From contig MU001674.1 of assembly GCA_010093515.1 (NCBI GenBank), positions 1,327,560 to 1,391,559 of the forward strand: DNA of 64,000 nt, in the 5' to 3' direction. Of this stretch, positions 15,814 through 47,490 are shown one piece after another (position 1 is the first letter of the stretch; the number at the start of each line of letters is the position of its first letter). Source of the stretch: Lineolata rhizophorae. Lineage: Eukaryota > Ascomycota > Dothideomycetes > Lineolatales > Lineolataceae. The notes under the pieces are model-generated. The model ran no database searches. It was given only the letters and a program-made list of their open reading frames with translations, and was not told the DNA's origin. The position numbers and the translations under genes are program-made.

Positions 15814-17149
15814 ATGCCCATCTCCACCACGTCTCGGTCCCCGCCAGTCCTAGACTTCTCAGGTATAGCAGACCTTAACAGCCCTACCCCCAGGCTCTTC
15901 GTGCTTCGGGCACAGGCGGGCCCCCCCCTTAAATCCAAAAGGCATAACTGCGCCCAGCTAACGCTGCGTCTCGTCAGCATTTTACGGCAGCGATGCAGCT
16001 GCCAAGCAGAAGCTGGTCGCCCAAGTCAGAGAGTGCTGTCTCCATAATGGATTCTTCCAGATCACGGGACATCGGATTCCGTCATCGCTGCAGGAGAAAG
16101 TGATGGATTGCAGCAAGCGTTTCTTTGACCTGTCATTGGATGAGAAGACTAAGATCAGCAAAGGTATATCTGCCCTTCCAGCAAGACAGCGCCGACGAAC
16201 CGTTTCCGTGCTGAAGAACTGCCGTTTAGCCAACAACAGTTATAACCGGGGCTACGAGCTGCTCCACTCCCAGATCCTGGAGGAAGGAACCGCACCCGAG
16301 CTCAAGGAAGGACTATATCTTGGCGAGGAAATACCCTCTAGCCATCCGTACTTCGTCAACAAGAAGCTCAACAGCGGCCCCAACCAATGGCCCACAGGCA
16401 TCGACAACCTGGAAGAATTTCAGCAGACAACAATGACCTACTACGCATCGATGTTCGAACTTGCCAAAGATGTCCTTGCGGCCGTCGCACTCACGCTGGA
16501 TCTCCCCGAGGATTACTTCGGCTCGTTTGTTGATGGCGCCGTGGCCGCCATGCGGTTCCTGCACTACCCTCCCCAGCCGCCTGATTCGAATGAGAGGCTC
16601 ACGCGCGGGGTTGGTGCACACACCGATTTTGGCTCCGTGACGCTGCTGCTCCAAGACGAGGTCGACGGGCTGCAAGTGTGGGACAGGGATGTTGAGCAAT
16701 GGTTCGACGTAGGTGAAGGACAAGACAAATCCCCTTTACCGTTAAAGCAACGTTGCAATTTGTTGGAGCTTCCTAACTTCTTATTATTCTCATAGGTACT
16801 ACCGGTGAAAGGCGCTTACGTTGTCAACCTCGGAAATATGATGCAAAGGTGGTCCAACGACCGGTATAAGTCCAACCTGCACCGTGTCATCAACAAGTCG
16901 GGCAAGGAGCGCTACAGTATTCCTTTCTTCTTCAATGGAAACCCAGACTACGTCATTGACTGTTTACCAAATTGTGCGGTTGATGAGCCGGCGAATTACC
17001 CGCCCATAACAGTCACTGCTGCCATCCTTGGCGGATACAATGACAGTTACGGACGCGCCGAACGATACAAACAGACAGAAGCAGGGAAAGCAGCAACCAA
17101 GGTAGGTATGAGCGATGACATCAATGCACAACCGATCACTGCTTCATAA
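15814..17149 (+). CDS. hxnY: 2-oxoglutarate/Fe(II) dioxygenase, HxnY-like
   Basis: Isopenicillin-N-synthase-like non-haem iron dioxygenase. Exons 15814-15862, 15978-16163, 16230-16708, 16796-17149, joined in frame to 355 aa. Seen: DIOX_N-type N-terminus (CCLHNGFFQITGHRIP), then the iron triad H209-x-D211 (GAHTDFGSVTLLLQ) and distal H267 (SNLHRVIN), followed by R277-x-S279 (RYSIPFF) for 2-oxoglutarate. A long read-through of introns would give stops, which supports the exon model. A. nidulans HxnY is a thymine-dioxygenase-like member of this family, and the neighbours hxnN, hxnV and hxnW make the hxnY assignment likely. Its exact reaction in nicotinate use is not settled. The C-terminal end could differ if a GTAGGT at 17102 is used as a donor. 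Confidence 0.82.
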
Positions 17150-17517
17150 ATCGAGATGTCTTCTTTGCCATAATCCTTTGAACTACCGTTGAACTGTTGA
17201 AGATATTATTCGGCTAGCGAAAACTATTGAAAAACAAGCTCATGTAAAGAAAGTCACACAGGCTGAGAGGTGGGATATTGTGAACATACGACTAAACGAT
17301 AATCAACCAAATAGAGTAGCTGAATATAGTGCTGTATTGGGTATCAAATTAAGACCTTCATCTAACTTGTGAAGCCTTTCCACCTGCGAATACCAGCGTC
17401 ATCCGAATGACAAGAATTGACGTCATCTCTCGAAATTCAACAGTTCGGAGAACTTCAATCCCCGCCGCCGCAACTGTGCCTTGTCAGTTATGGTCTTTCT
17501 GTCTACGCGTGGCAGTC
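17150..17517. other. Short intergenic stretch after hxnY
   Basis: AT-rich 3' flank of hxnY and of the small minus-strand ORF that follows; it probably holds both 3' UTRs. No other feature is seen. Confidence 0.4.
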
Positions 17518-17688
17518 TTACAGCTTGAGAATGCTCTTGAGACCCTTCTTGACAATTTTGGTAATAAGGGTCTTCTGCTTGTCTTCTTCCTTCTTCTCGG
17601 CAGCATTGGGGTCCTGTGGCTGCGCTTCCTTCTTGCCCATCATGCCTTGGGCCGTGCTGACGGCCTTATTCATGTCGATGCCGGTCAT
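17518..17688 (-). CDS. Small basic/charged hypothetical protein (56 aa)
   Basis: The frame codes MTGIDMNKAVSTAQGMMG followed by a Lys/Glu/Asp/Gln-rich centre and an amphipathic Lys/Leu/Ile C-terminus (TKIVKKGLKSILKL). The frame extends upstream without a stop to 17865, but the longer N-terminus is Arg-rich and looks untranslated. I do not recognise a family. It lies between convergent hxnY and hxnN, so it is not part of the usual hxn set. It may be a real microprotein or chance; composition with a clean start and a helical C-terminus is the only support. Confidence 0.3.
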   Translation of the reverse strand: MTGIDMNKAVSTAQGMMGKKEAQPQDPNAAEKKEEDKQKTLITKIVKKGLKSILKL

Positions 17689-18909: not shown

Positions 18910-21559
18910 TCACCCCTCTTCTCTAACAACGCGTTCCACCACCTCTGCCACACCCAGCACCTTCTCCTCTTCCAACTTCCTCCCCACAACCTGCACACTC
19001 ACCGGCAACCCTTCCATTTGCTCCAAATCGTACAACTCCCAATTCCACGCGTCCGCCTCATTCCTCGGCTCATACTGCGGCCGTTCCTTCGGATCCTTCT
19101 CCCTCTCCACCCTCCCCGCCGGCACGCACACGGCCGCATAGCCCAAGAAATTCCACACCTTAGTATATCCCACCCAGCGACAGGTCCTGTGCGGCACGGC
19201 CGTATGCGGCATCGACGGCGTGAGCAGCACGTCGACGGGGCGCCCGTCCGCCGTATGCGCCGCTGACCCGTTCCATTTGTCCAAGTACGCCTTCTGCGCG
19301 GCGAGCTTGCGCCGGTTGAGCTGCCAGTATTCGAAGACGGAGATAGGCGGCGCGCGGGTGATAAGAGCGTGGACGTGAGGGAGGAAGGGCTCGCCGCCGG
19401 CGGAGACGGCGCGGCGGATGTCTTCGCCGCCGTCGGCGGTGTAGTATGCGTCCTGCCGTGGGTTTCGCGTTGCTAAGGCTTGGGCCGAAGAAAAAGATGC
19501 ACACAGGATTTGAGGTGGGTTTACATACCATGATATTGATGCACTCTTTGTGGAGGCTTCCGTCCCACGCGATCACCTCGTGGCCTGCTGCACTCATCTT
19601 CGCAGCTACTTCTCGTAATACTCGTTCGATGGGTGGGTGCACTTTTACTACGCCGTCATCCACTAATAGGCCAACCGAGAGTCGTCGGTTGCGAACATCC
19701 TCGTACGCCTCCGGGCGCCACGGCAGCGGCACCACTTTTGGATCTAGACGCCAGGGCTCAGAGTCACATATGGCCTTGGTGATGTCGCGGAGGGAAGAAA
19801 GGCCACGTGTTAGGGGCCCGATTACGGAGGGAACATGTTCCTGGCCTTCGGTTGAGACTGGAACACCATGGTAAGGGAGCCTTGTGGCCTGTAGCACAGG
19901 ATAGCAGACGCGGTTAGTTCAAAGAGGTATTCGCGTAAGCTCGGAAATTTGATGGGCACCACAATCTCGGAATATGAACTTGAGGATGTGTGGAACCGGC
20001 GGGCAGGACTTACGCTTGGCTTCAGTCCATACAGCCCCAGCATATGCGCGGGGATGCGGACACTTCCGCCAATGTCTGTCCCCCATCCAACGAGAGAGCC
20101 ATGTAAAGCGAGTAGAGCCGCCTCACCTCCGCTGGATCCGCCGGGTGTTAACTTAGGGTTATCTGGGTGGACGGTGAGACCCCAGAGAGGATTTTCAGTC
20201 TCGCACCACTGCACATCATGACGTAAAAACAATCATTAGCACAGATAATGGGAAAACGGAAAGTCAACGAATTTGGAATTCAACTTCTGACGCTAAAAAG
20301 GCTCAGAAATTTTATGTTCGTTTGGTATTCTAAAGGATGATCCGAGCCTTCTAGAAATTCCAACGGATTTAAAAGTGGAAACCGGACCCACCATAATGGA
20401 TTGTGGGAGATTTGTCTTGCACAGAATCACCGCGCCGAGCTGCTTCATGAGCTGGACCACCACGGCATCTTCGACCGCGGGTTGGAACGCCCGCGCCACG
20501 TACCCGAGCGTCGTGTCGACTCCCGCCACGTCGAATTGGTCCTTCAGGGACACGGGAACGCCGTGTAGAGGGCCAATAAGCTTGCCATGCAGTGCATAAT
20601 AGGCGTCGAGTTCGCGGGCTTGGGCCAACGCTTCGTCGAAGAGGATTTCGGTAAGGCTGGTAAGTGCGGAGTAGTTAGTCCAATCCGCGGAAATGATGTT
20701 CACTTTTTTCGTTTCAACTAGGTAAGGTAAGAGACGAGGATCCGGCGGGAAGCGGACTCTAGTGGCAATTGAGTTCACTCAGGGTGCTTCCGAGTTTCCG
20801 GACCTAATGGAGGAGCGAAGCAGAATGCAGCAACCGGAGCCGAGCGTTGGGGAAAACGGCGACAAAACAAACATGAAATCCACACATACCAATTCGTCTT
20901 TCCTCGCCGATCAGCCGCCATGCCACGAAGATGTCAACTACCGACACGATCTAGGAGCGAGCAAGGAAAGGAAAAGAAAATAATTGTGGAGCTGGCGCTA
21001 GCCTTACCACGTGCTGCGCAAGCGAGGCCCTGCATTCACCGCGTGAGAATCATACCATGAAGGAACTCGATCGTTTCGCGGTTGTCGATCATTCAATCGC
21101 CTACTTCTCGATGTATTCGCGAATCACCTCCTCGGCCGTCCAGCGACCGCTCGCAAGCGCTCGCGTCAATTCCTCGACCGAATCCACGTCGCTGGGTCCC
21201 TGGCATCGTGTGCTGCCGCCAGCATCCGAATCCTAGGTGCAATCGCGGTGTGAGTCTCCTTGTCCTTGTTTCTTCCCCTGGCCTCGGCATTTGGATGCGG
21301 ATCGATTGGCTCTCTCGGATCGCGCCGAGCATGCCGTCAATGGGTGATCCACGATGCATCGAGTGCCTCGCGTGCCTCGCGTGCCCCGTGGCCACTTCTG
21401 GAAGCGAAATACGTGCGCACGTATGCAGGTAGTACGGACCTTTGCGCGAAGGTTGGTGGTGGCGTTGGCCGTTGGCGCATGCGCCCTGACAGCATCGTCC
21501 CGCAGCTGGCGCTTGTGGGCCGCCGTCTTCTGCCAAGTCGCTTGCTCGATGCTGCCCAT
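18910..21559 (-). CDS. hxnN: Amidase-signature hydrolase, HxnN-like
   Basis: Amidase (PF01425) proposed to hydrolyse the open-chain amide late in nicotinate breakdown, releasing ammonium. Inferred exons in transcription order: 21559-21440, 21199-21105, 21029-21008, 20897-20890, 20656-20392, 20208-20014, 19888-19529, 19452-18910; total 1608 nt, 535 aa, all phases consistent. Catalytic Ser-cisSer-Lys triad visible: K120 (GVPVSLKDQF), S195 (PGGSSGGEA) and S219 (GTDIGGSVRIPA), with spacings of 75 and 24 as in the family. The N-terminus reads MGSIEQATWQKTAAHKRQ, then VEELTRALASGRWTAEEV. Two very short exons (22 and 8 nt) are needed to give EYIEKASLAQHVTNCLTEIL, which matches the family block around TNCLTEI. 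They rest on splice signals and family similarity, not transcripts. Shares a 0.96-kb divergent upstream region with hxnV. Confidence 0.87.
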
Positions 21560-22521
21560 GATGCAGCTAGAAAAGCGGTTGGAAATAGACCGGAGGATTC
21601 GCGTCCTGCCACGAAATTTTGAGGATAGCAAGAGTTTGAGGGAAGAAATGGAATTATAATCGCTCGGGAGTCCAAGTGGGTTGATGCTGCAGGCCGTTTG
21701 TCGGAGATAGGTATGTCGCACTTCCGAACATCGCAAGGGCGGACTGGTGATAAGCTCACAGAGTATGTATGTAGCACCTTAGTAGCTTCAACGCCATGGA
21801 CTTTTGCAACGTCCATTGGGTGAAGCACCCAATGGAGCCGCATGCCCCTGGCAGCATAGGCCTCTCACGGACTGTTGACGGTGGCATAGGGGGAGAAGGG
21901 TGGGGCAAGCCGCGAGCTAGCAAGCACATTCCGCCCACTTTTGGGCGACCTATATCCTTGCGTCCCACACGCCGACGTGCAGAGCGCCGTCATTAAAACC
22001 ATTTCACACGACGCGTCAAAATCCTCGCGCCCAGCATTTCAAAAGCTTTGCCTGGAGCCGGCTGCCGGCTCTTCCCGCTCTATTCTAGCTAGCAGTCACG
22101 CCACATCGTCCCCAAGAATTCCCTTAGGGGCCAACGTTCTCCGGGCCGCGCCGACTCCACTACTGAAACAACCGTCTAGCTCCAACTAGCGCCATTGGTC
22201 CCAGCATCGTCGTACCTGGCGGTCCCAGCGGCCCGGATCGCTGCCAACTTCGTGAAACAGACGCTATCGGGAGACGAAGGAGAGCGTCTCCAAGGAAGAA
22301 GCTGGTCTAGGAGACGACCCTACAGGCGGCAACGTCGGCAAGAAATTTTCGGCATGGCGACCACGATGGATGCCGAAGAGATATTTCCGGACGTGGACCC
22401 CAAGTCTGCATTCCCTTTTCTTCCTTGCTCCTCTCTCTGTTCGGCTCCTTCAACCCTTGCGCCTCTAGTTTTACTATAATACATATGTTTCTCAATTGGC
22501 CTTCATTTTTGTTCCGTCATC
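21560..22521. promoter_or_regulatory. Divergent hxnN/hxnV intergenic region
   Basis: About 960 bp separate the hxnN and hxnV starts, which face away from each other, so it must carry both promoters. A C/T-rich run (near 22410-22445) precedes the hxnV ATG, typical of fungal start regions. No coding feature is recognised. Confidence 0.5.
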
Positions 22522-24905
22522 ATGGGTCCTCCGATTTGGAAGCTCATGACTCGCAGCTCGTCGCGGTCTCCTAGCACCTCCTCAAGCTTACAAAGTACTA
22601 GCGCCACCACGAGCGATGCGGCCTCGTCCCGCCCGAATAGTCACGACCTACTGGACCCTTCCGCGGCCGCCAATGGCCTCCCTAGAACTCCCGCTCCGCC
22701 CCCCAGCAGCGATGTATTGGTCGTAGGTGCGGGACCGTCAGGTCTTATGCTTGCGTTAGTGCCCGCAACTTGAAGTGTTTTAGAAGCTGGGCGTGAAATC
22801 TCTTGAACTAAATGTTGAACGGTGGGGACCAGTGCAAATTTGATCCGGTTTGGAATCAAAACCGAGATCGCGGACAGCCGGCCGGAGCGGACCGTGACGG
22901 GTCGCGCCGATGGCTTGCAGCCGAAAACGATCGAGACGCTCAAGCAGATGCGGTTGGCAGAGAAGGTGCTATTGAAAGGCGTGAGGGTGTACGACATTTG
23001 CTTCTGGGTGCGTGTGGCCAGATCATTTTTAATTCCCGAGTTTTCCTAATTTTTCTTTTCTTTTACTTTTTTTTTTTTTTTGAGGAGCCGGAAATGGATT
23101 GTAGCTAATAATTTGAAGAAATCCACAGCGACAGAGAGACTCCGCCGTAAAGGCCGCGAGATTCACTATCCGCCGGAGGTCGTGGATCTTCTTGATCCGT
23201 TCATCCTGCTTGTACACCAGGGGATGGTGGAACAGCTTTTCATGGATGATATGGATGAGCGCAAGGGTCATGTTCGCAGAAACCTGAACTTTGAAGGCTG
23301 GAAGTCATTGCAAATGAAGAACAGAGCATTGGAGGCTACGTTCAAGAACAAACAGGGTGACGGAAAGACTACTTTCCGGACAGATTATATTGTCGGGTGC
23401 GACGGTGCACATTCGATGGTTCGCAAGTCAATTCCGGATTGCCGCGCTGTTGGCGCGTCGTCTGATTCTAGTACGTATATTTTATCTCCCGTTCTTCGAA
23501 ATCTCGTATTGACTTAGCTGCTTCTAGTATGGGGAGTTATCGATGCGGAGATTGACACCGATTTCCCGGATTTGTGGAGTAAAGCGGTGGTGCATTCGGA
23601 GCAGGCTGGTTCAGTTCTCATCATTCCGCGAGAACGAAACATGACTCGGATGTACATCGAACTAAAGTCGGAGACTCGGGAAGGGGTCCCAAAGAATGAG
23701 CTAACCAAAGACTTTGTGATGAAGCGGGCTGGGGAAATCATGCAGCCATATTATCTCAGGTGGAGGCGAATCGGTAAGGCGTGCTTCTAGAACCATGTGT
23801 TTGAGTGCTTCACTGACCCTTTAAGAATGGTTCGGTCGTTATCAAATCTCACAACGAGTGGCGTCGCGGTTCTCAACAGACGATCTGAACGTTTTCATTG
23901 CAGGAGATGTAAGCAATAACCTCTTCTCTCTACCTAATATTTCACTAAACAACTCCGCAGGCCAGCCACACGCACTCTCCCAAAGCCGCACAAGGCATGA
24001 ACACATCCATGCACGACGCGTGGAACCTCGCCTGGAAGCTCAATCTCTCGATTCGCGGTCTCGCCAAGCGCAGCCTGCTTGAAACGTACGAGGCCGAGCG
24101 CCGCAAGATCGCCAAAGACCTCATCTCGTTCGACTACGAGCACGCCAACGCCTTCTCGGCCGGCGACGCCAAGGCGCTCGCGCAGAACTTCAAGACAAAC
24201 GTGCGCTTCATCTCCGGCGTCGGCGCCGAGTACGCGCCCAACGTTTTGAACGTGCCGGCCAACGCCGGCGCCAGCACATCTCCTTGGCCCCTCGTCCCCG
24301 GCTGCCTCCCCCCGCCCGCAAAAGCGACCCGCTTCATCGACGCCAACCCGGTCGACCTCCAACTCGCCATCCCTATGCTCGGCCAGTTCCGCATCTTCGT
24401 CTTCGCGTCCGACCCCTGCGGGTCGTCGCGCCCCTTCCTCGAAGCGCTGGGCTCCGCGCACCTAGGCCAGGGCTCGCTCGTCGGCCGCGCCTCCGCCGCC
24501 GCGAACGCGTCGTACACGCTGCAGCCGCCCGCCTTCGGCGAGTCGGATACCTTCATCCGGCCCGAGCGGTACACGCCCGTGTCCGGGCTGTTCACGTACG
24601 CGCTGGTCGTGGCCGGGCTCGGGGCAGGGCGCGATCGTGTCGAGCTGGATAGGCTGCCGCCGCTGTGGCGCGAGTCGAGGTGGAGCGTCTATTTGGATGA
24701 TGCGGCGGAGCTGGATGCAAGGCGGATGTCGTGCGCGGAGAAGTGGTGGGGTGGGCTCGCGAGGGGCGAGGTCGCGGTCGTGAACGTGAGGCCGGATGGG
24801 TATGTGGGGAGCGTGGCCAGATGGGCGGATGGGTCGAGGCTCTCCGGGGAGAGGGCTGTTAGGTGGTTGGATGGGTATTATGAGGGGTTTTTGAAGGGGG
24901 ATTGA
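22522..24905 (+). CDS. hxnV: Phenol-2-monooxygenase-type FAD monooxygenase, HxnV-like
   Basis: Class A flavin hydroxylase proposed to hydroxylate a dihydroxypyridine intermediate. Exons 22522-22754, 22833-23007, 23119-23470, 23528-23773, 23826-23908, 23961-24905; 677 aa. Seen: FAD GxGxxG (DVLVVGAGPSGLMLA, near residue 70), substrate-side block (RLRRKGREIHYPPE, LVHQGMVEQLF), DG motif (IVGCDGAHSMVRKSI), second FAD motif ([20 protein letters not shown] then DAWNLAWKLNL), and the thioredoxin-like C-terminal phenol hydroxylase domain. The order matches phenol hydroxylase; the hxn identity comes from context. Odd: about 60 Ser/Thr/Pro-rich residues precede the FAD domain. Exon 3 was started at 23119 (KSTATERLRR) to keep ICFWKST continuous. 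Convergent with hxnW. Confidence 0.88.
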
Positions 24906-25318: not shown

Positions 25319-26348
25319 TCACCATTTTGTCACTCCACCATCGATACAAAGATCATGACCCGTCTGTTGACACATTCAATTAGCCTGCAACTTGTCGCTT
25401 CTAACCCTCACGCAAGCCAATACAAGCAGCATGAAGAAAGGCAACAAACTCACCATATACTTGCTCCCATCCCCCGCCAGAAACACACACGCGCCCTTCA
25501 AATCCTCCGTCTCCGCCACTCTCCCCACCATGATGTCCTCGCCCCATCTCGCCAACAAATCCGGAAACGGCCCCGTCATCTCCGTCCTCACATAGCCCGG
25601 ACTCAAACTATTAACGCGGATGCCCATGGGCGCGAGCTCGGCGGCCATGGGCGCCACCATAGCCGCGACCGCGCCCTTGGTCCCGCAGTACGCGGACGAG
25701 CTTTGCGTGCGTATGGCGCCGCGCGCGGCGATGGACGCGACGAGCACGATGCTGCCGCCGCGGCCGCGGGGCGGCTCGTTCGCGAGCATGGTGCGTGCCG
25801 CGTGCTGCGCCGTCATGTACGCACCGAAGACGTTGACGGCGAGGAGCTGCGAGAGGTCGGCCGCCGTGGTAGAGAGGAAGGGAATGTTCTTGTTGATGCC
25901 GGCGCAGGCGACGCAGATGTCGAGCGTGGGGGAGAAGGAGGCGGCGAGGGAGGCGAAGCCGGATTCGAGGGCGGGAGCAGAGCTCACGTCGACGCTGGCA
26001 GGAGTTGGATGGGAGGGTTAGCGTGGACGGGGAATTGAAAGATAGGGTTATGGAGGGGAGTGCGCGGCTCTCACTTGAAGTATGCTGTCTTGATGCCGAA
26101 GCGGTCCTTAATGGTGTTGAAGGCGTCGCTGGGAGAAATGATGTCGAAGATGGCAACGTCGGCGCCGGCCTCGGCGAGCCCTTCGGCGAAGGCTAGGCCG
26201 CAGCCGCGAGAGCCTCCTGTGACGAGTGCGGTACGACCTTTGAGGGAAAACTGTGTGTTGATACCTTGAGCATTTTTGGATGTTGATACTAAAATTTTGG
26301 ATAACTATTAGAAGTGTGTGCATGGATAGATAACTGTACCTGTGCCAT
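25319..26348 (-). CDS. hxnW: Short-chain dehydrogenase/reductase, HxnW-like
   Basis: Classical SDR, NAD(P)H-dependent; proposed ketoreductase of the nicotinate pathway. Exons in transcription order: 26348-26340, 26250-26075, 25994-25454, 25363-25319; 771 nt, 256 aa. The first exon codes only Met-Ala-Gln; splicing to 26250 gives [21 protein letters not shown], a textbook SDR start. Motifs: TGGSRGCG (residues 14-21) for the dinucleotide, CAGI in place of NNAG, S149 (VASIAA), Y164 and K168 (YCGTK), and the terminal exon [13 protein letters not shown]. Length is usual for the family. It is divergent from hxnM, sharing a 588-bp region with GATA motifs. The substrate assignment rests on context. 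Confidence 0.9.
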
Positions 26349-26936
26349 GATGCAGGCTCTGTTCCTATCAGCAGATAGCAAAGTCCATGAAGCTACAGAG
26401 CTCGTGGAGTTCAGGATCGCCCCCGACAAGTACGCAAAACAAGAAGCCGGAGAGCCATCGTGAGAAGCACAGGATTGAGATGAGCAGGCAAAACTGAGCA
26501 GGCTAGACAGAGCGTGTTGCAGCAGCAGTGGACTCACTAGTGGGGTGAACTCGCCAACCCCGCCATTGCGTAGCTCACTCGCCCCACCTTGCCTGGGTCC
26601 GGAGCTCTATCCCTGCCCGCAGCACGCTGCGCCGAGCGGGCAGGAGCTAAACACGAAAAAGATTCCCTGCACGATAAGAAGCTTCCGGCCATAGGCAGGT
26701 CAGTAGGCAGCTGTGTCTGTTGTGTAGTCACACAACCCCACCTTTATCGGGCCACGACTGTGCTTCGGATAGCATCAACGTTACATCTTTGAATGGTCCT
26801 TTCAATTCAACTAAACACCCGGTGGCTTCTTCCCTCAACGGCAGTTTGCCGGACTTCCCAGCTTAATCCGGGTCTGCGTGCCGTCTACGAGAGATTCCTT
26901 ACCTCCCGAGATTTACTCGGAGTATCCTGAACGAAA
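26349..26936. promoter_or_regulatory. Divergent hxnW/hxnM promoter region
   Basis: Bidirectional intergenic region. GATA-type (HGATAR) words occur as an inverted pair at 26365-26378 (CTATC-AGCA-GATAG), and as single sites at about 26744 (TTATC) and 26768 (GATAG). A. nidulans hxn genes are reported to be under AreA nitrogen control, which would fit, but motif density alone proves nothing. Confidence 0.5.
26365..26378. promoter_or_regulatory. Inverted pair of GATA motifs
   Basis: CTATCAGCAGATAG has two head-to-head GATAG cores separated by four bases, 17 bp upstream of the hxnW ATG. It is a candidate AreA (GATA factor) site, though so close to the start that it may lie in the transcribed leader. 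Confidence 0.4.
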
Positions 26937-30921: not shown

Positions 30922-31062
30922 GACCTGAACATGTTGGCACCATCTCTTTCTAGCCAACGGCTTAATTACCCGGTATGACACCTGCAGCCTAGATAATTTC
31001 GAACTTCTTCATGTAAATAGTTAACGAACACGGTACCACCAAATAATGGACACAATTGCTCC

Positions 31063-34000
31063 TTATGCCACAGAAACGAAGAAGCTCTTCTCTCCCTCTT
31101 TGCGGAGTACTTCGGTCTTCTTGACAAGATCATCTCCGACGGCAAGTCGTAGTCTCTCCACCGTAGCAGGACTATCCATGATGAATCCTGACTCGTTCTC
31201 TTGAACGCCATTCATAGTCCTCGCCGCCTTAACCGCTTCCCGCAAAGCGAAGAAAACCGTAGCACCGAGGAAGAGCGGGGGTTCACCAACCCCTTTGCTG
31301 CTTTGGATGCTGCGCAAATGGTTCCACGTGAGCGGCTTCCCGTCCGAGTCAGCCCGCAGCATGCTGACATTGAATTGTTGCGGGATGTCGTTGAAGCCGG
31401 GGATCTTGTAATTTCCAGGACCTCGGGTAGCCAATTCGCCGGTGTTGAGCCAAAGTGACTCCTCCATGGTGAAGAGGCCTTGACCTTGGACAAAGGCCCC
31501 TTCAATTTGCCCATAGTCAATGGCAGGGTTGATTGACTGGCCTACATCCATCAAGATATCCGTCCGGAGTACAGTGTGGTCTCCCGTGAGCAGGTCTAAC
31601 TCTGCCTCGCTAACCGCGACACCCTGCACAAAATCGTTAGCAAGAAGAGACAGTCGAAATAGAGAAGGTATGATAGTCCAACTCACCTGCGTGAAGTAAT
31701 AATACATCGGCCTCACAGTTTTCTCATCGTAACTTCCCCACTGATACCCAATACGAGGCATCTTCCAGAACCCGTTGGCCGCAAGATTGACTCGATCGAG
31801 GTACGCCGAATGCACCAAAGTCCTCATAGGAGCGTCGGCTCCGTACTTCTCCCTATACGGCTTGAGCCGCTCGTTGATTTGATTGCATGCATCCTTCACA
31901 GCCATTCCATTCAAGTCGCTACCAGACGAGGCTGCCGTCGGCGAGGCATTTGCCGACTGATACGTCTGGCTGTCCTGCGTAAATACCGCGTCGACAGGAA
32001 CACCCAATTCCTGGGCGGCAACCTGGCACATCTTGGTGTAGAGCCCCTGGCCCATTTCCGTGCCGCCGTGGTGGAGAAGGACGCTGCCATCGTGATAGAT
32101 CTTAACGTACGCCGTCGCCTGGTTGAGATGTAGAGCTGTGGCAAAACTAAGACCAAACTTCGTCGGGATGAGGCAGATGCCGCGTTTCTTCCACTTGTTG
32201 GAGTCGTTGAACTTGGCGACAGCTGCTTTCCGCGCGTCGTAATCCGAAGACTTGCGGAGTTGTTCCATCATCGTAGGGATGTGCCAATCGACGTCGATCT
32301 GCTGCAGGAAGGGCGTCCTATCACCGACCTTATAAAGGTTTTTCTGCCGCAGCTCGTCGATGTCGACACCAAGACCTTCGGCGATAACGGACATGAAGCA
32401 CTCGGTGACAAACATGGCCTGTGGGCCGCCGAATCCTCGGAAGGCCGTGTTGCTGTGTGTATTCGTCTTGCAACAATGAGCGCGAATGAAGACATCGGGA
32501 ATCTCGTAGCAGTTGTCTAAGTGAGTGCAAGCGCGATCCAGCACAGCGCCACTCATGTCCTGAGAAAAGCCAGCGTTGTCGTACATATCGGCCTCCAAGG
32601 CAAGGAGCTTGCCATCGTTCGTAGTGCCAATTTTCCACTTTGTTTGAATTGGATGTCTCTGGCCGCTGGTCATCATATCCTCGTCTCGGTTTAGCATCAG
32701 TCGCATTGGCCGTCCTTCCTTCTTGGCGGCAACGGCTAGGAGACACGCAAACGGCACGCTACGCGATTCTTTCCCACCAAATGCACCACCCATGCGCTTG
32801 ACCCTAGCATTGATCCGGTTACTAGGAACACCGGTCACTTGGCTGACGAATTCCTGAGTTTCCATCGTGTTCTGGGTCGACGACCACACGTCCATAGCAC
32901 CATCCTCAGAGTGCGGAATGACAAGAGAGGCGTTTGTTTCCAGATAAAAGTGCTCCTGACCTCCAACCCTCGATACCCCTTCAAATACGCGATCGCACCT
33001 CGCAAACGCGTCTTCCATGTTTCCATGGATTGCAATACCCTTCTTGAGCATCTTGCCGTGCGCGAAAAAGCTGTTTGCCTCGATCGCTTCATCAATCGTG
33101 AGAATCGCAGGCAAAACTTCGTATGTGACCTTGACGACCTTTGCGGCCGCCTGCGCCTGCAAAGCTGTTTCCGCGTACACCATCCCAATGATTTGGCCAT
33201 GAGACGTGACCTCTCCATCAGCGAAGAATGGCTCATCCTTCTTGACAGAGCCCCAGACATTTGCTTCCTTCGGGATACTATTCTTGTCGATGTATCCCAC
33301 AACTCCCGGCATATTCAGCGCCGGCTCCCAGTCGACATCAACGATCTTCGCGTGAGCCTTAGAAGACAGCACCAATCCCCCGAACAGTTCTCGATCCTGG
33401 CGGGGCATGTCGTCAACATACTCGGCTTCTCCGGTGCATTGCTTCAACGCCGAAACGGCGGGGACTTGCTTTCCAACAACCCTCTGCTCGTTAGGGTTGT
33501 AATCGTCCCTCGTCCCAGTTGAGAGTTCCCGGTGAATTTCTTCGATAATGTTCAAGTCTACATCCCCTAGTTGGAGCTCTGCAACAGACTCATGCCAGAA
33601 CCTGAAGAACATGGACAATACCAAAGCACGACGGTAGTGCGCCATCCCTCCGGGAACTGAAAAGCTGAGGTTGCAATCTTCGGCTAGAGCATCCAAACCT
33701 GATGACAATGTCTCCGAATCGAACCATTTCTTCTTTTGCAAGACTGCTTTGGCCTTTTTCATTGATACGGTCGTCGGCGCGATGCCGCCATAGGCGAGAA
33801 TTATATCCTCAACGGCACCATCAGCACTCAGCCGCAATTTATATGCGGCATTAACAATTGCGATGTCATCATCTTTCCTCTTCGCTTGCTTGTAAGCCTT
33901 GATAATGTGCTTGTCGTTTTTAGCCGGAATTGGTATGGCTACTTGAGTGATGACAGCATCCGGCGGCAAGGACGTAGTGCGGTACGCCATGAAAAGGTCA

Positions 34001-35595
34001 CTCAGTGGAATGCGAATTTCCTCTGGCTGGAGATTTCGGGCAACAACATATGCTCCACTTGCCAACAGAACGGGATTGGCGTCGGAGATCGGCGAAGCCG
34101 TGGCAAGATTTCCTGCCAAAGAAGCTACATTCCGAATTTGACGGCCACCAAAATACCGCAGTTGCTTGCGAAGAGCGTCCAGAACCGACACTTGAGTCCC
34201 AAACTTCCTGTAGGTCTCCTTGCAGAGATCTTCGGCCGTAGTGAGCGGTGTATTTGCGCCAATACGGATCTCTCCGCCAGACTCGAGGTCCGTCAGGAAG
34301 TCATTCTTCTGCAGTTCCTCGATATCCGACACATACACGGAGACAGCAAAATCCGAATTCTTGAATCGGATTTCAACTTGCACCTCCGTGGCTCCAGCTA
34401 CGAGCTTTGCGGACGGCCACTTGTCCTTGATTTCTAGCAGTTGCTGAAGTGTCGTGGGGCGGAACCAGAGCTTCCTCTCGTTTCCGTAGCAGATCGGCGT
34501 CCGCTTAAACTTATAAAGAGCCGGCGGGTATATGAGCTCTGTAGAGGCATCGTAGGTAGAAAATTGTTGTTGAGCCACGCCGGCTTTCGAGCTAGAAGGC
34601 GGAGCCTCGAGATGCGTCTCAGTCTTCACTTCGATCTCGACACCTTCCTCGCTCGGCTTTGATTCTCGCGACTTCGCAGGCTTGGCGTAGGAAGCGCCGC
34701 TGACAGAAGGGTCCTCCGCAACTTCGTTGCCTGATACTGAGGTGGCATTTGTCGACGCAGAATCCGGCGACGAGCTGAGGGGAGCGCCACTGGAATCCGA
34801 GTTCGGCGAGGCGTCTCGGCAGCATCCTCCGGGGCGGCCACAAGATACCCCTGTAGAGCCTCGTCCGCACGAAGCAGATCCAGCTTTGAGTGACTCCGCA
34901 TCAAGGGCTGCCTTTTCCAGCCCATTCTGGTCAGAGGACTCGGGAGTGCTCTCGAGCTTTCCCCCAAGATCTTCAGTTACGAATGTCCTGGCCGCCTGAA
35001 GAATCGGCTTGTATCCAGTGCACCGGCACAGGTTTCCATCCAAATGTCCTTCCAACTGAATATCCCTCTCCAAAAGCCGAAATACATCCTTCTCGGCGTC
35101 GTAGGCGTTCCTGAGTATAGCGTACATGGCCATGACGATTCCCGGCGTGCAGAATCCGCATTGCGAACCGTGAAGCTTAGCGATGCGCTCCTGCAAGGGG
35201 TGAGGCCTCGACACGTTTCCCAAGCCCTCAATCGTTATGACGTGCTTCCCATCGACGCCGACGAGCGGAAACAAACACGCGTTGACCGCCAGGTGCTTGA
35301 CCTTTGTCCCCGACGGCCGTGTTGCCGCCACGCGTGTCTGCACCACGACCGTGCAGGCGCCGCAGCCGCCCTCACCGCACCCGAGCTTCGTTCCCCTGAG
35401 CCCATGCTGGCTCCGGATGTATTCGAGCAGCGTCAAGTGTGGATTCGGATTCTCGAGCGAGACCTGTTTGCCGTTGAGATAGAAAGTGAGGACGGAGGAT
35501 GTGAAGGTCGACCCGACGAGCGGCGTTAGCGCGTCGGCTGCGGTACGCGCCGGTTGCGCTTTCGGCGCCGACATGGGGGGTCGCGGGAGCTCCAT
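31063..35595 (-). CDS. hxnS: Molybdenum hydroxylase: nicotinate hydroxylase (purine hydroxylase II), HxnS-like
   Basis: Xanthine-dehydrogenase-family enzyme that in this cluster should hydroxylate nicotinate to 6-hydroxynicotinate. About 1489 aa from the ATG at 35595 (MELPRPPMSAPK); one intron at 31624-31686. Domain order: 2Fe-2S ferredoxin domain (GCGEGGCGACTVVV), helical 2Fe-2S domain (GSQCGFCTPGIVM, CRCTGYKPI), a Ser/Cys-rich linker (residues ~260-380), FAD domain (FGGRQIRNVASLAGNLATASPISD) and molybdopterin domains (RVKRMGGAFGGKESRS, SNTAFRGFGGPQ, HHGGTEMGQGL, GVGEPPLFLG). Residues equivalent to the xanthine dehydrogenase Glu802, Arg880, Thr1010 and Glu1261 are present, so housekeeping xanthine dehydrogenase (hxA) cannot be excluded from sequence alone; synteny with hxnX and hxnR favours HxnS. 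Convergent with hxnX, divergent from hxnR. Confidence 0.85.
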   Translation of the reverse strand: MELPRPPMSAPKAQPARTAADALTPLVGSTFTSSVLTFYLNGKQVSLENPNPHLTLLEYIRSQHGLRGTKLGCGEGGCGACTVVVQTRVAATRPSGTKVKHLAVNACLFPLVGVDGKHVITIEGLGNVSRPHPLQERIAKLHGSQCGFCTPGIVMAMYAILRNAYDAEKDVFRLLERDIQLEGHLDGNLCRCTGYKPILQAARTFVTEDLGGKLESTPESSDQNGLEKAALDAESLKAGSASCGRGSTGVSCGRPGGCCRDASPNSDSSGAPLSSSPDSASTNATSVSGNEVAEDPSVSGASYAKPAKSRESKPSEEGVEIEVKTETHLEAPPSSSKAGVAQQQFSTYDASTELIYPPALYKFKRTPICYGNERKLWFRPTTLQQLLEIKDKWPSAKLVAGATEVQVEIRFKNSDFAVSVYVSDIEELQKNDFLTDLESGGEIRIGANTPLTTAEDLCKETYRKFGTQVSVLDALRKQLRYFGGRQIRNVASLAGNLATASPISDANPVLLASGAYVVARNLQPEEIRIPLSDLFMAYRTTSLPPDAVITQVAIPIPAKNDKHIIKAYKQAKRKDDDIAIVNAAYKLRLSADGAVEDIILAYGGIAPTTVSMKKAKAVLQKKKWFDSETLSSGLDALAEDCNLSFSVPGGMAHYRRALVLSMFFRFWHESVAELQLGDVDLNIIEEIHRELSTGTRDDYNPNEQRVVGKQVPAVSALKQCTGEAEYVDDMPRQDRELFGGLVLSSKAHAKIVDVDWEPALNMPGVVGYIDKNSIPKEANVWGSVKKDEPFFADGEVTSHGQIIGMVYAETALQAQAAAKVVKVTYEVLPAILTIDEAIEANSFFAHGKMLKKGIAIHGNMEDAFARCDRVFEGVSRVGGQEHFYLETNASLVIPHSEDGAMDVWSSTQNTMETQEFVSQVTGVPSNRINARVKRMGGAFGGKESRSVPFACLLAVAAKKEGRPMRLMLNRDEDMMTSGQRHPIQTKWKIGTTNDGKLLALEADMYDNAGFSQDMSGAVLDRACTHLDNCYEIPDVFIRAHCCKTNTHSNTAFRGFGGPQAMFVTECFMSVIAEGLGVDIDELRQKNLYKVGDRTPFLQQIDVDWHIPTMMEQLRKSSDYDARKAAVAKFNDSNKWKKRGICLIPTKFGLSFATALHLNQATAYVKIYHDGSVLLHHGGTEMGQGLYTKMCQVAAQELGVPVDAVFTQDSQTYQSANASPTAASSGSDLNGMAVKDACNQINERLKPYREKYGADAPMRTLVHSAYLDRVNLAANGFWKMPRIGYQWGSYDEKTVRPMYYYFTQVSWTIIPSLFRLSLLANDFVQGVAVSEAELDLLTGDHTVLRTDILMDVGQSINPAIDYGQIEGAFVQGQGLFTMEESLWLNTGELATRGPGNYKIPGFNDIPQQFNVSMLRADSDGKPLTWNHLRSIQSSKGVGEPPLFLGATVFFALREAVKAARTMNGVQENESGFIMDSPATVERLRLAVGDDLVKKTEVLRKEGEKSFFVSVA

Positions 35596-38138
35596 AATCG
35601 CGATGATTACTCTCTGCCCGCTCTCACGAGTGCAAAAAAGCAACGGGACTGCGTGGCTTTTAGTCAACGTGCAAGATGACCTGTTGTTTTCTCTTGATGA
35701 CGGCGTGCGGTGCCCTGCAGAGGTTATGCCGCCCAGTCGCCGTTTTGAGGCGCCCAGCTCTGCCGCCTGGGAAGCACAAGAGGGTCCGCTCACCTTGCGT
35801 ATTACATTGGCCTAGAGCCGATCTTTCCCTCTTTCCCGCCACCTTTCCCCACTCTTCACGCTCACTATCGAGCGTGCGGTCAACGTGTCGCAGTGCGTCG
35901 TGGAGTAACGTGACAGCGCGTCACAGAGGGAGCGACAATGCTGTCTGCCACCTAGTTTCGTTCCCGTCGCGTCGGAAATGATGCTTCTCCGCCGAGAGTA
36001 GGAAGAAAATCGCACGTCTAGGCCCATTACCACGGACGTAGGAGCATTCCTATGTCTACAGACACTTCCACTGTTATTTTCTCGGTGCCGTTGTGGAACA
36101 ATCCTTTCGTGTTGCGTTGCATCTATAACTTTACTCTGTTGTAGCACAGGCGACACCATGAAGCAGAATCGGACTCAATTTTCGCCGCTTTCAATTATCT
36201 AGTATTGCGGACACACGCCTAACTAGACTTCCTAGCGCGGACGCTCCTACTAAGTCGAAGAAAACATGCATGGACAGCCCCTTTGCCTGCGTAGACACTC
36301 TTTTCTCCCCTCCCCCTTTGGACCCGACGGAAGGGCCTCCTCGACCCGAGACAAAGTAGGCCTCGCTGTCCTGCACTATGCGGTCATCTGGAGAGTGAGC
36401 GTACATACTACTCCCTCGTGCTCAGCTACGACCTCCTCGGCCACTGGTTCTCGGCTGCGAACGCTCGGCTAGGGGTTGCTTGACCCCGTTGAGATGCTGG
36501 CGAGCTCCTTAGAGGTGGCGAGCCCTTACGTATGTATTGTAGTCCTCACGGACAATTAAGACTGGGTCTTGGTGGCTATAAAAGCAGGCGAGTAGGGCAT
36601 GGTTAAGCAAGTAAGCTAAGCGTCCTAATAAGCATGTAAGCATGTAGACGCGTGCAGTCAACCCCTTATTTCGATTGGCATACTCTATGAGCGACCGTAG
36701 CACTGGACGGCGGAGCCTACTTGACCGGCAGTCCGGGAGACTCTCCCATTGGGTCCATAGAGCATAATGTGCTTTGGGGAATAGATGATTGGCCACGCAT
36801 ATCTGCTTCACTATATTCAAGAACTGGCCGATGGCCAAATAAAATCTACTCGTATCCATCACTTACAAATCAGTTCAGTTTGTCGCCAGGGCAGTCAACC
36901 CAGCGACGTGGCAAAGCGCCCATCGCATTCGAGTTGCACGAAGCATTCCTTCCGATAGGTGTATAAGAAATCCGGCCAGTGTCGCTAGGCGTAATACAGT
37001 CAGCAGCTGGCCAGCTAGGCATTGCTGTTTTCGGACTCATCATGTATTAATGCGGGAATTATTGCACACGTATCTTCGAGCCGCGATTGACGGCAGTGCT
37101 CTGGAGGACCGATATCGCCGCGTTATTTCTTGGAATATGGGAGCCACAAAAATCGCAAGGAGAAGCGGCTAGGGAGTGGGAGGTGTTGAGTTGTGCGGCT
37201 CCTCCCGTGGGCTCCTTAGAAGGCGCCCAGGCAGGCACCGGCGACGACTTCCTCTAGTTGTGCCCGGCTAGGGAACGCCCCTTGACTTTCGACAGTTCTC
37301 CCCCGAGCTAGTGCGCACGGGTATCTAAGACGCGCGTTGACAAATGCGCCAGGGCCATTCAATTACCTACACGTTCTTACTCTCCGCGTAGACCTGCTGC
37401 GGCCGAGGCCTATCAAGCAGGCATGAATAATGTGCGGCGTTCGGGGTACGTAAAGGCCGTTATATCGATATGCGGAAAACGCGGGGAAAGTCACCACGTG
37501 CTCTGCAGCCAGCTCTGACCACCTTCCGACAACGCACTACGCCACCGTCAGGGCTACATGTCCAACCCTGCGGACGTCGCAGGGCGAGCTTGAGTAATCC
37601 CACGGGGCCGCGCATCGCTGCTGGATCGACCTTCCGAGTGCGGTAAATTGCGGCACAAGCGGCGGCGGCCCCGTCGTCGGTGGCTGCCTCCCCCACTCTC
37701 GCCGGCGTTTGCTCCGACCCTCCTCCCACCCTTCGTCCGCCTCCGGTAAACGCCATTGACGACCTTGGCTTCAGCAATCCGGCATGGGTTTAATGCTGTG
37801 CGCCGCTCCCATTGGGCCCCAGGTGACCGGCCGCTCCCTTGTTGCATCGGACTGTCCGCTGCGTCCGCCTTCGCAGCGCAGGCGATAAGGCGGCCGCGCT
37901 GCGCGAGCGAAACATGGGTTTCACGATGAATGTTCGCCTTAGTCGCCGTAGAGGGGCCAAAAGTCATCCTATTTTCTTTCGCACAATACTTTCTTCCTTT
38001 TTGTTTTATCGCCCCTCAGCCAGGAATTCGTTAGCCTTGAACGCTCCTGAGAAATTCTTTGCCTGGATATTCGTTTTTCTGCTGGGTGAAACTTCTGAAG
38101 CATCTTATATACAGCCTTGCCGGTGACGTAGTTTCAAC
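35596..38138. promoter_or_regulatory. Divergent hxnS/hxnR intergenic region
   Basis: A 2.5-kb interval upstream of both genes. A GATAAG word lies near 37884, about 250 bp before the hxnR ATG, and a CTATC near 35866. A 36480-36670 segment with a CTATAAAAG box has the look of a regulatory or old repeat sequence. No coding gene is recognised. Confidence 0.4.
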
Positions 38139-41100
38139 ATGGGTTCTTCCACAGAGGACAGCCGTCGGGCGACGAGAAAGACAAGCACTGCTAGCAAGAA
38201 CGTCAATAATGCCTCCCCAACGAAAAGATTTGTGTGCATGAATGAGGGCTGTGGCAAGAGCTTCACGAGATCAGAACATCTTCAACGCCATCTTCTGAAT
38301 CACACTGCAGGGGAGAGCACGTGTGAGAGATGCAGGGCACATTTTAAGCGTCGCGACCTTCTTCGTAGGTGCTTTTATCTTTCTTGTAGACCCACACACA
38401 AACGTTCAATTAGCTTTCTCGTGGTGCACCTTCCCTGCGTCCCACTTTGGTTCCGTGTACCAGCCACTTTTTGTGTACCCCATTCTTGGAACATCATGTG
38501 GCAGTGCACTAACATAAACTTTAGAGAGACATCTGGCCAGACATCGGCAGCGTGATGCTGAAGCCGGTGGCGAAGGAGTGGGAGTATTGAACACCCGAAA
38601 GCGACTGTGGAACATCGATGGCAAAATTGTGGCCAAGAAGCCAAAAGTCTCGCCATCGACTTCACAAGACTCAGGCAGCCCACCCTCCCAACTATCTAGC
38701 GCATCACGGGATCATGATCCATCAGGCGCGCCAATTTCACCTCCCACTTCAACAAGTACAACCGGGATCCATGGCCACCTCAGAAACCAGGACTCCATTG
38801 AAAGCATTGACGAACAATGGGACATTCCAGCATTACCATTGGAGCAGTCCGGGGCTGAAGGGCCGCCAAATCCCCAGTGGATGTCCCAAAAGGGATATGT
38901 GAACGAAGGAGCCAACATTGATAACGCGAATCATTTCTGGTCGAACGTGAATGCATCTGATCCTTATAGACCGAACGATGACATTGTCTTCGACGACATC
39001 TTTCAGCCCGATACAGGTAATATGTCCCGGGCCTGAATCGAGTTCTTCGTATGCTGATCACTGTTGCAGCAAGTTCTTTCAACATGCCTTTCACTACTAT
39101 GAACAACTACAGCTGGCTCTTCGACCTGAACTCGTCCTGCCAGCAATATGGAACCTCGGCCCAGGCGGACTTCAACCACTCTGGCGCCCACCCTCCGGAC
39201 TTTAATCCGACTGTGAGCGCGGTTTCGATTGATCCAAACGCTTTGGCATCGCCGACGAGCTTACCCAGTTGCAGCGATGCCCAGATTGCTTCAATCATCA
39301 GTCCCCACTCGATTTCGGAGGGGAACTCTCATCGGATCAAGCTTCCGTCAGTCCGTGACGCGGCCGGTATTGGTGACGACGTGCCTCCGTCCGTTGACCT
39401 ATTCGCGAAAAGCACTCATGATTACCGTCCGGGAGAGCCTCGCATGTGCATTGAACCGTCACTTCTAGGCCCCGTATGCGTACCCGTCTGCTTTCTATCG
39501 GCTATTTTTGAAATCGCTCACTAATTTTTGCAGGCACCCTCTGAATTACTTCCTACTGCCTCCATCAACGATGTGGACCGGCCACTCGCCATGTTAGATT
39601 CATCTAGCGGGCTCCCCGTTATCGACGAAGTGGCAAGATCTGAAGTGCTATCCGTGATCGAGGCAGCACGGCCAATCGGTCCGGACGGGTCGCTCATTAC
39701 TCGAGATAATCCGCTTCTCTCACTCTCCGCAATGCAGACATACTGCGATTTATACTTCACTCGTTTCAACACTGCATATCCGTTACTGCATCGACCTACA
39801 TTCGATGCCAGCCACGCGGAGACCCTGCTCCTTGTCTCCGTTCTCCTACTTGGTGCAACATATAGTGAAAAGGACTCACATCAAATTGCTGTAAGCACTA
39901 CGCAAGGTTGGCCCAATCAACTTGATTTAACTAGTCTCTAGGTTTGCGTTCATGATGTTCTCCGCCCGCAGATCTTTGCCAATGCGGGTTTCAACGCTCG
40001 TCCGGACCTATGGGTCCTCCAAACCATTCTACTAGTGGAATGTTTTGGCAAATCTCGCGCCGGCCAGAAGCAGCATGACATGGCACATCTTTTTCATGGG
40101 CTGCTTATAAATTTGATACGGCGCAGTGACTGTCAAACCATTCGGCCACCGATGGTACAGGATAGTACTGGCGACCTTCACGATGATTGGCACAGATGGG
40201 CGCATGCGGAACAGAAGAAAAGGTATACTCACCGCATCGGACATAAAAACAATAATTTTACTGATCTTATGTTCCTTTTAGGCTAGCATTCCTCTGCTTT
40301 TGCTGGGATGTTGAACACGCCGAACTGTTTTGCCAGTCTTTGTGCATGTCTGCATTTGAACTGCGCTCAAATTTACCATGCAGCCAGTCACTATGGGAAG
40401 CTGATTCTGCTGAACAATGGCAATTCCTCCGACGCGAACAAAGGACTCCTCCGGTCTTCTTGGGGCTCCTAAAAGCTTATTTGACTCCAGGAGGGCAATC
40501 GATCCCGAAAGATCTCAATGCCTTGTCACGAGTTATCCTTCTTCACGGGCTGATGTCTGTTGCATGGGACATGCGACGCCGAGATCAAACCTCTCTTGGT
40601 AAGCTCTTTACACCGAAGAAAATACCAGACCCCAAATTTTGAATCCTAATCCCATGCCAGGCCTCGTCGGCAACGACGGCCCCATCGGCAACTGGAAAGC
40701 CCGCATCGGCCGCTCCTACGACCTTTGGCACGACGACTTCACCACCTACATCCAAACCTCGCTGTCCCGCCTCCATTCTATACCATCCTCCGCCTCGTCC
40801 ACCTCCGCATCCAGCACATCCGCCCGCATCACCGAATTCACGGCCTTCGCCACCGCCATCACCGCCATCTACCACTCCGCCCACATCACCCTCGGCGCCG
40901 ACATCCTCGACATCCAGATCTACGCCGGCGCCCGCCACATCCTCGGGCGGCCCGTCGCGCGCCCCGACTACGCGCGCTCGCAGCGCGTCGTCCGGCGCTG
41001 GGCGGCAGCGGCGGGCGATCCGGCTAGCGAAAGCGACGCGCCGCCGGCGGCCGCCGCGGCTGGGCCGGCGGCGTGGCATGCGGCGAAGCTGCTGCGCGAC

Positions 41101-41622
41101 GCGGTGACGGACCTGAAGGAATTCGATGCCGGGGGGCTGTTTCATTACCCGTGGTGCTTGTATCTGGCAACGTTGACGGTGTGGGCGTTTTATCACGGGC
41201 GGCCCGCGGGCAGCGTTAGTGGCGCGAGCGATGCGAGCGGGCTGCTGGCGGGGAAGAATCGGCGGGTGGATTCCTCGGGCGCGAGTTCCGAGCAGGCGCA
41301 TGAGGAGGAGGCGGGGCGGTGCCAGGCTGCTACGGGAGACGCGAGCGACGATGCGGCGGGGGTGGATGCGGATGAGGATGGTGAGGACGAGATCGTGTGG
41401 GATGCGAGAGGGGATATGAAAAGGCTTGTTGAGAGCATGACTGATAGTGATGTGGTGGATTTGGCACTGCTGCCGGCGGGAAAGAGGAGGACGATTGGGC
41501 TGACGGCTGTGGTGGCCAAGCATTTGAGTAAGGTTAGATGGGCGGTCGTACATGATGGGATGCAAGTCCTGAGAGGATTGGTGCCGTGGAGGTTGATCAA
41601 TCAGTGCGAAAGCGTGTCGTGA
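38139..41622 (+). CDS. hxnR: C2H2 zinc-finger transcription factor with fungal-TF domain, HxnR-like
   Basis: Candidate pathway activator; in A. nidulans HxnR is the positive regulator needed for hxn gene induction. Exons 38139-38364, 38525-39016, 39070-39473, 39534-39890, 39942-40222, 40282-40598, 40661-41622; 3039 nt, 1012 aa, all phases fitting. Two C2H2 fingers at residues ~30-85 (CMNEGCGKSFTRSEHLQRHLLNH; CERCRAHFKRRDLLQRHLARH), the second interrupted by intron 1, then a basic KR-rich patch (TRKRLWNIDGKIVAKKPK). The middle region (YPLLHRPTFDASHAETLLLVSVLLLGATYS...VLQTILLVECFGKSR) is the fungal-specific transcription factor homology domain. The C-terminus is Ala/Asp-rich. Located beside hxnS, as expected for the cluster. 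Confidence 0.88.
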
Positions 41623-47470: not shown

Positions 47471-47490
47471 TTTGGCGCGACACTAGCTCG

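Follow-up and report, generated by a model that had tools for sequence, protein, structure and literature searches.

The hxn regulon of Aspergillus nidulans comprises eleven genes in clusters 1/VI, 2/VI and 3/I, according to the portions of PMC5746545 and PMC9304392 drawn on here. Arrangements vary in other species (a parallel survey appeared in mSystems in 2021), and the sections of PMC8478523 on which we rely, published in 2021, place all 11 genes in a single cluster in Cyphellophora europaea and Hymenoscyphus repandus. Two divergent couples, hxnN-hxnV and hxnW-hxnM, are reported across Pezizomycotina.

We found eight of the eleven A. nidulans hxn genes within the 64-kb window (the whole stretch of DNA analyzed), lying in one block in the order hxnY(+), N(-), V(+), W(-), M(+), X(+), S(-), R(+), with both divergent couples present. 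The block is very probably a fungal, most likely ascomycete, nicotinate-utilization cluster orthologous to the A. nidulans regulon, judging from domains and diagnostic residues. The first-pass annotation had placed eight families together at 15814-41622, limits with which the span of our spliced models coincides exactly, and had equated them with the A. nidulans Hxn set; Y, N, V, W, M, X, S and R are indeed present, but the full set of eleven also has hxnT, hxnP and hxnZ, which we did not find in the window.

Gene models and coding evidence

The spliced models (Table 1) total 5111 codons with 31 introns, whose GT-AG sites were placed by hand, partly guided by typical family architecture; both the canonical splice sites and the uninterrupted frames across introns thus follow in part from how the models were built. 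Hand-placed sites superseded initial automatic models, which reached only the last exon of hxnR and were also inadequate for hxnN, hxnW, hxnM, hxnV and hxnY; the less certain parts are the 5′ end of hxnN (modelled with 7 introns and one 8-nt exon), one hxnV splice site, and the start codons. All eight modelled frames are stop-free. A codon-usage score was derived from six long open frames flanking the block, of which not every one is a proven gene; by this score the modelled frame ranked highest in every one of the eight genes when compared with the two other sense and three antisense frames, although the margin was modest for hxnW (0.15 vs 0.107) and narrow for hxnR (0.022 vs 0.013).

Table 1. 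Genes and intergenic features of the block, with protein lengths beside those of A. nidulans
Feature	Position	Strand	Length here/A. nidulans (aa)	Exons	Evidence and remarks
hxnY-like 2-oxoglutarate/Fe(II) dioxygenase	15814..17149	+	355/349	4	DIOX_N 1.8e-29, 2OG-FeII_Oxy 1.7e-27
hxnN-like amidase	18910..21559	-	546/543	8 (modelled)	5′ part uncertain; Amidase 2.2e-104
Divergent promoter region hxnN-hxnV	21560..22521	.			Gene models; couple reported conserved in Pezizomycotina
hxnV-like phenol-hydroxylase-type flavin monooxygenase	22522..24905	+	671/620	6	
hxnW-like short-chain dehydrogenase	25319..26348	-	256/254	4	adh_short_C2 2.1e-52
Divergent promoter region hxnW-hxnM	26349..26936	.			Gene models; couple reported conserved
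hxnM-like CE4-fold cyclic imide hydrolase	26937..28137	+	313/307	5	Polysacc_deac_1 5.6e-17
hxnX-like 6-hydroxynicotinate monooxygenase	29405..30921	+	469/461	3	FAD_binding_3; C-terminus AHL
hxnS-like nicotinate hydroxylase (xanthine-dehydrogenase paralogue)	31063..35595	-	1489/1396	2	Domains and marker residues
Gap between divergent hxnS and hxnR	35596..38138	.			2.5 kb; hxnT position in A. nidulans; no OYE gene trace
hxnR-like activator	38139..41622	+	1012/865	7	Two C2H2 fingers and Fungal_trans

The seven spliced proteins searched (all but HxnS) gave Pfam matches above curated cut-offs, while HxnS, searched as one unspliced frame, contained seven molybdenum-hydroxylase domain families; the domains agree with the published list for each Hxn protein. 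Given the very small domain E-values and the fit of published diagnostic residues, chance family resemblance is no concern. Protein lengths are near those of A. nidulans for Y, N, W, M and X, and greater for V, S and R. Six-frame Pfam scans, run over the Y-N, M-X and S-R gaps and over most of the N-V gap, revealed no extra family above cut-off, the amidase itself excepted.

Third-position G+C was 0.61-0.80 in the cluster genes and 0.52-0.72 in the flanks, overlapping ranges in which W and M exceed the flanks, and gives no clear signal on horizontal transfer. Elsewhere in the window, at 54387-55978, eight transmembrane-like hydrophobic windows of 19 residues occur in one plus-strand frame, antisense to a 687-aa minus-strand frame; the two long open frames there are without a Pfam match.

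Marker residues of the eight proteins

HxnS is a full xanthine-dehydrogenase-type protein whose best PDB matches are xanthine dehydrogenases, as would be expected if the gene encoded HxA beside unrelated neighbors and the hxn likeness were family co-occurrence only. Against this, every HxnS-specific marker checked, as defined in the cited part of PMC5746545, fits HxnS. The motif FATALH at residue 1151 shows the Ala inserted after Phe1009 (FATAL, not FTAL) and His for Phe1013 of HxA, and alignment to solved xanthine dehydrogenases gives Pro for His954 (P1095), Ser-Gly for Val1081-Ser1082 (S1224-G1225) and an aliphatic residue for Phe417 (I564). Two length differences agree: the second FeS cluster has 9 extra residues between its Cys 2 and Cys 3, and the linker to the FAD domain is longer (about 135 residues separate the two aligned domains, compared with about 33). 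We therefore rejected an ordinary xanthine dehydrogenase, and with seven more hxn-type genes and the conserved couples in the same block, the probability of HxA among unrelated genes is close to nil.

For HxnX, all eight published A. nidulans active-site residues have a match by spacing (H236, Y240, Q64, V227, V238, V251, L252 and L253), although Q64 is displaced by one residue relative to the A. nidulans spacing, and Val251 does not separate HxnX from NicC. Its C-terminal AHL conforms to the PTS1 consensus quoted in PMC12316961; the A. nidulans protein ends in SRL, and conservation of the HxnX PTS1 is reported across Pezizomycotina. PDB matches include NicC (5eow, 7.4e-47; 8uiq, 1.5e-47), outranked by matches that include a 4-hydroxybenzoate decarboxylase and a decarboxylative vanillate hydroxylase. 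This ranking, the missing hxnT, the induction of the A. terreus hxn cluster on salicylate, and the fact that function is here transferred from A. nidulans would all suit the same families serving another N-heterocycle or aromatic compound with changed substrates. We consider such a switch most unlikely, as HxnX equals its A. nidulans counterpart at 8 of 8 active-site positions, the HxnS-specific markers are present, and the hydrolase that opens the ring in the nicotinate route occurs together with the amidase of that route. The hxn identity proposed by the first-pass annotation draws support from the HxnS markers, from residues of HxnX, HxnV and HxnW, from the PTS1-type end of HxnX, and from the divergent couples.

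HxnV (FAD_binding_3, 3e-70; Phe_hydrox_dim, 2.6e-16; PDB matches 8r2u, 1pn0 and 2dkh) has five of six published residues, D104, K266, L278, I280 and Y290 corresponding to Asp65, Lys231, Leu243, Ile245 and Tyr255 with spacing identical to A. nidulans for the last four; by spacing, the sixth, Ile126, is Leu161. HxnW carries TG(X)3GXG at residue 14 (TGGSRGCG) and active-site N116, S149, Y164 and K168, features common to many SDRs and weak when taken alone. The closest PDB entry to HxnM is the cyclic imidase-like CE4 protein HpPgdA (3qbu, 1.9e-130, residues 4-293; next match 4.9e-22). A very recent bacterial acquisition of hxnM was considered and rejected: the best prokaryotic relative was 66% identical in a pattern-based, non-exhaustive scan (80 kept of 137 related stretches), and four introns are modelled. 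Residues 58-538 of HxnN align with fatty acid amide hydrolase 6kvr (2.6e-80; also 2vya, 1.7e-59), and K131, S206 and S230 are present.

HxnY has the motif residues H209-x-D, H267 and R277. Published structural comparison names thymine-7-hydroxylase as the closest homologue of A. nidulans HxnY; in our sequence search thymine dioxygenase (5c3p/5c3q, 1.7e-37) ranked below several dioxygenases of other pathways, so support for HxnY orthology is mostly positional. In HxnR, Fungal_trans (PF04082, 5.3e-48) spans residues 446-717, and two fingers lie near the N-terminus by pattern, at 33 and 62, of which only the first was also detected by Pfam (zf-C2H2 above cut-off, residues 31-55). C-terminal of the fingers stands VLNTRKRL, for comparison with the A. 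nidulans NLS VLETRKRMRRA.

By transfer from A. nidulans, substrates, induction and nitrogen regulation would be as follows. HxnR, activated by a late pathway intermediate, would switch the genes on without preferred nitrogen. HxnS would hydroxylate nicotinate to 6-hydroxynicotinate, which a peroxisomal HxnX would convert to 2,5-dihydroxypyridine, and HxnV would hydroxylate this to 2,3,6-trihydroxypyridine. Ring saturation, the step of HxnT, would fall to an alkene reductase encoded outside the block; HxnW would then oxidize the saturated product, HxnM open the imide ring, and HxnN release ammonium, with HxnY in an accessory role, possibly detoxification.

Intergenic regions and the genes hxnT, hxnP and hxnZ

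In A. nidulans the regulon is co-induced by 6-hydroxynicotinate in dependence on HxnR and AreA. The W-M region holds four HGATAR and four GHGGGG sites, each count being reached in 3% of shuffles. Among five intergenic regions, AreA-type counts were above chance in W-M only and HxnR-type counts in two, W-M and upstream of hxnY; all other counts of either type were at chance level.

The OYE motif pair expected of hxnT was absent from the window in every one of the six frames, and the gaps and flanks scanned by read-through gave Pfam matches to neither OYE (hxnT) nor MFS (transporters hxnP and hxnZ). Relics of hxnT or hxnP were rejected for both candidate gaps, Pfam searches giving only unrelated families below cut-off (best E 0.023 in 35596-38137; best E 0.15 in 13466-15813). 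As none of the three genes turned up in the window, the block also lacks the hxnS-hxnT and hxnP-hxnY couples reported elsewhere.

Three of eleven genes not found in the window, together with documented cases in other fungi of hxn clusters that are partly lost or contain pseudogenes, might point to a decaying block that lost hxnT, hxnP and hxnZ and then its function. Yet the eight stop-free modelled frames all score as coding (hxnR narrowly), A. nidulans deletions of T, P and Z have leaky or mild phenotypes, and no T or P relics were seen at the expected places, which leaves decay quite improbable. We suggest only tentatively, as a possible but rather doubtful account, that the block is a compact eight-gene cluster encoding the catabolic route minus ring saturation, with hxnT and both transporters having left the cluster or the genome and an unlinked alkene reductase saturating the ring. 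Counter to this account, hxnN and hxnY are kept although their A. nidulans deletions are likewise leaky or mild. Should hxnT be absent genome-wide, the species would serve as a natural test case for UE1, the still unidentified alkene reductase acting as backup to HxnT in A. nidulans.

Comparison with described hxn systems

In the cited portions of PMC5746545 and PMC9304392, the A. nidulans regulon occupies three loci and includes hxnT, hxnP and hxnZ, whereas here one block holds eight of the eleven, whose domains and active-site residues match, and those three were not found in the window; hxnR has one intron in A. nidulans and six in our model. The bacterial NicC-type pathway, as treated in the part of PMC9304392 used here, has a 6-hydroxynicotinate monooxygenase belonging to the superfamily of HxnX but differs in its ring-opening chemistry; that source describes the case as convergent evolution.

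The sections of PMC8478523 relied on here describe closer parallels. Clusters of Aspergillus section Aspergillus are also without hxnT, although there, unlike here, hxnM and hxnN are located apart from the main cluster. C. europaea and H. repandus, as at this locus, have hxnS, R, Y, X, W, V, M and N in one block, with divergent couples N-V and W-M in the former and W-M in the latter; unlike in both, hxnT, hxnP and hxnZ were not found in our window, and hxnS and hxnR face apart across 2.5 kb without hxnT between them. The first-pass annotation had valued contiguity because the A. nidulans genes are split, and the genes are contiguous; one-piece clusters, however, were already known from these two species. 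The block is a further example, adding to the published comparative series a contiguous hxn cluster without hxnT, hxnP and hxnZ, and it informs the question of which hxn genes stay linked: the S-T and P-Y couples do not hold here, and the N-V and W-M couples do.

Gene content of the block

Eight genes of the A. nidulans nicotinate catabolism (hxn) families, as the first-pass annotation had proposed for 15814-41622, were recovered as spliced models that together span 25.8 kb, with 31 introns and 5111 codons. The models were spliced by hand from raw sequence, with splice-site placement guided partly by usual family features; the 5′ part of hxnN, a single splice site in hxnV, and the start codons of several models are uncertain. 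All eight proteins carry the expected Pfam domains (seven as spliced proteins, HxnS as an unspliced frame), and the modeled frame of every gene outscored five alternative frames in codon usage trained on six long open frames from the flanks, with a narrow margin for hxnR.

Features of the hxn block and its flanks
Feature	Position	Strand	Remarks
SLA1-type endocytosis adaptor	290-4086	+	SH3, PH_SLA1, SHD1 domains; left flank
HET-domain (heterokaryon incompatibility) protein	8208-9974	+	6 kb left of cluster
FAD_binding_4/ALO-type oxidase	11202-13465	+	domains in 11813-13465 frame, none in 11202-11786; neighbor of hxnY; not among known hxn genes
hxnY	15814-17149	+	355 aa
small open frame	17521-17868	-	between hxnY and hxnN; lysine-rich C-terminus; putative coding; no Pfam match in read-through scan
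hxnN	18910-21559	-	546 aa; eight exons
hxnV	22522-24905	+	671 aa
hxnW	25319-26348	-	256 aa
hxnM	26937-28137	+	313 aa
hxnX	29405-30921	+	469 aa
hxnS	31063-35595	-	1489 aa; long, Ser-rich interdomain linker with Cys-rich patch (SCGRGSTGVSCGRPGGCC)
hxnR	38139-41622	+	1012 aa
three consecutive open pieces	44355-45601	+	last: weak phosphotransferase (APH) match below Pfam cut-off
cytochrome P450	47874-49727	+	right of cluster; one piece matched, first piece alone did not
putative RNA methyltransferase	50071-51297	-	PF02598
EI24/CysZ-like and PNPOx_N-like frames	56388-60197		right of putative RNA methyltransferase

Identity of the predicted proteins

Features distinguishing HxnS from xanthine dehydrogenase (HxA), as listed in PMC5746545, were read from alignments to solved xanthine dehydrogenases, and by this reading all those checked are present in the window protein: an inserted Ala (FATAL) and His for Phe1013, Pro replacing His954, Ser-Gly replacing Val-Ser, an aliphatic residue replacing Phe417, nine extra residues inserted within the second FeS domain, and about 135 residues separating the aligned domains versus about 33 in the solved enzymes. 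Arg880 and Phe914, common to HxnS and HxA, are also retained in these alignments. HxnX agrees with A. nidulans HxnX at all eight positions given in PMC9304392, placed by spacing from the His/Tyr pair; one of them is displaced by a single residue, and another does not distinguish HxnX from NicC. Its top solved matches are 4-hydroxybenzoate decarboxylase and decarboxylative vanillate hydroxylase, with NicC ranking behind, and its C-terminus, AHL, matches the PTS1 consensus quoted in PMC12316961.

HxnV agrees at five of six listed residues, the sixth, Ile126, being Leu. The nearest solved relative of HxnM, by a wide margin, is HpPgdA, as is likewise reported for A. nidulans HxnM. For HxnN, the fatty acid amide hydrolase alignment covers residues 58-538 of 546 and retains the Lys-Ser-Ser positions. 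HxnR combines PF04082 with two C2H2 fingers (both by pattern, one above the Pfam cut-off), and has VLNTRKRL where A. nidulans HxnR has the signal VLETRKRMRRA. The HxnS markers, HxnX and HxnV residues, and HxnM relative bear out the assignment to hxn-type genes, and the hxn name is right as far as could be tested.

The motifs found in HxnW are common to many short-chain dehydrogenases. HxnY has dioxygenases from other pathways as its best solved matches, with thymine dioxygenase lower (1.7e-37), and its name is based mostly on position. AreA-type and HxnR-type sites both exceeded shuffled sequence in the hxnW-hxnM intergenic region (3% of shuffles), as did HxnR-type sites upstream of hxnY (3.3%); the other 7 of 10 comparisons were not above shuffled sequence, and the site enrichment is weak.

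Search for hxnT, hxnP and hxnZ

The A. nidulans regulon comprises eleven genes. In that species hxnT occupies the gap corresponding to the one between hxnS and hxnR here, and from the couple published in PMC8478523 hxnP would be expected upstream of hxnY. Six-frame read-through, which detects split genes (eight-exon hxnN was recovered, Amidase 2.1e-67), gave no Pfam match to OYE (the hxnT family) or MFS (the transporters hxnP and hxnZ) in 4087-8207, 13466-15813, 17150-22140, 28138-29404, 35596-38137, 41623-44354, 45602-47873, 51298-54326, or 56388-64000; it left out 9975-11201, 22141-22521, 26349-26936, and gene-filled stretches, whose long frames were scanned partly. Loose OYE/MFS motifs in six frames of the window gave scattered matches only, with no second OYE motif nearby, and hydrophobic windows form an array at one place only, antisense to an open frame of 687 aa at 54.4-56.0 kb; this array matches no Pfam family.

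Proposed pathway and comparison with known clusters

By transfer from A. nidulans, HxnS would hydroxylate nicotinate and HxnX and HxnV would add further hydroxylations; an alkene reductase, here necessarily supplied from outside the block, would saturate the ring, followed by oxidation by HxnW, ring opening by HxnM, and ammonium release by HxnN, with HxnR switching the genes on in response to a late intermediate. In A. nidulans, hxnT deletion is leaky, which is read as pointing to a second enzyme, and hxnP and hxnZ deletions are mild (PMC9304392), so the pathway might still run with these eight genes. Deletions of hxnN and hxnY are likewise reported as leaky or mild, yet both genes are present, so dispensability would not by itself account for which genes are in the block.

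The eight-gene block itself is confirmed, but the evolutionary point that the first-pass annotation drew from its contiguity was already published: PMC8478523 describes single clusters holding all eleven genes (Cyphellophora europaea, Hymenoscyphus repandus), a cluster of 10 genes (Monascus ruber), and clusters without hxnT in some Aspergillus species, and PMC7842363 surveyed the cluster across Ascomycota at the same time. We do not claim the eight-gene form as an unreported arrangement. The divergent couples hxnN-hxnV and hxnW-hxnM, reported as conserved across Pezizomycotina classes but not in Aspergillus (PMC8478523), are both present in this cluster.
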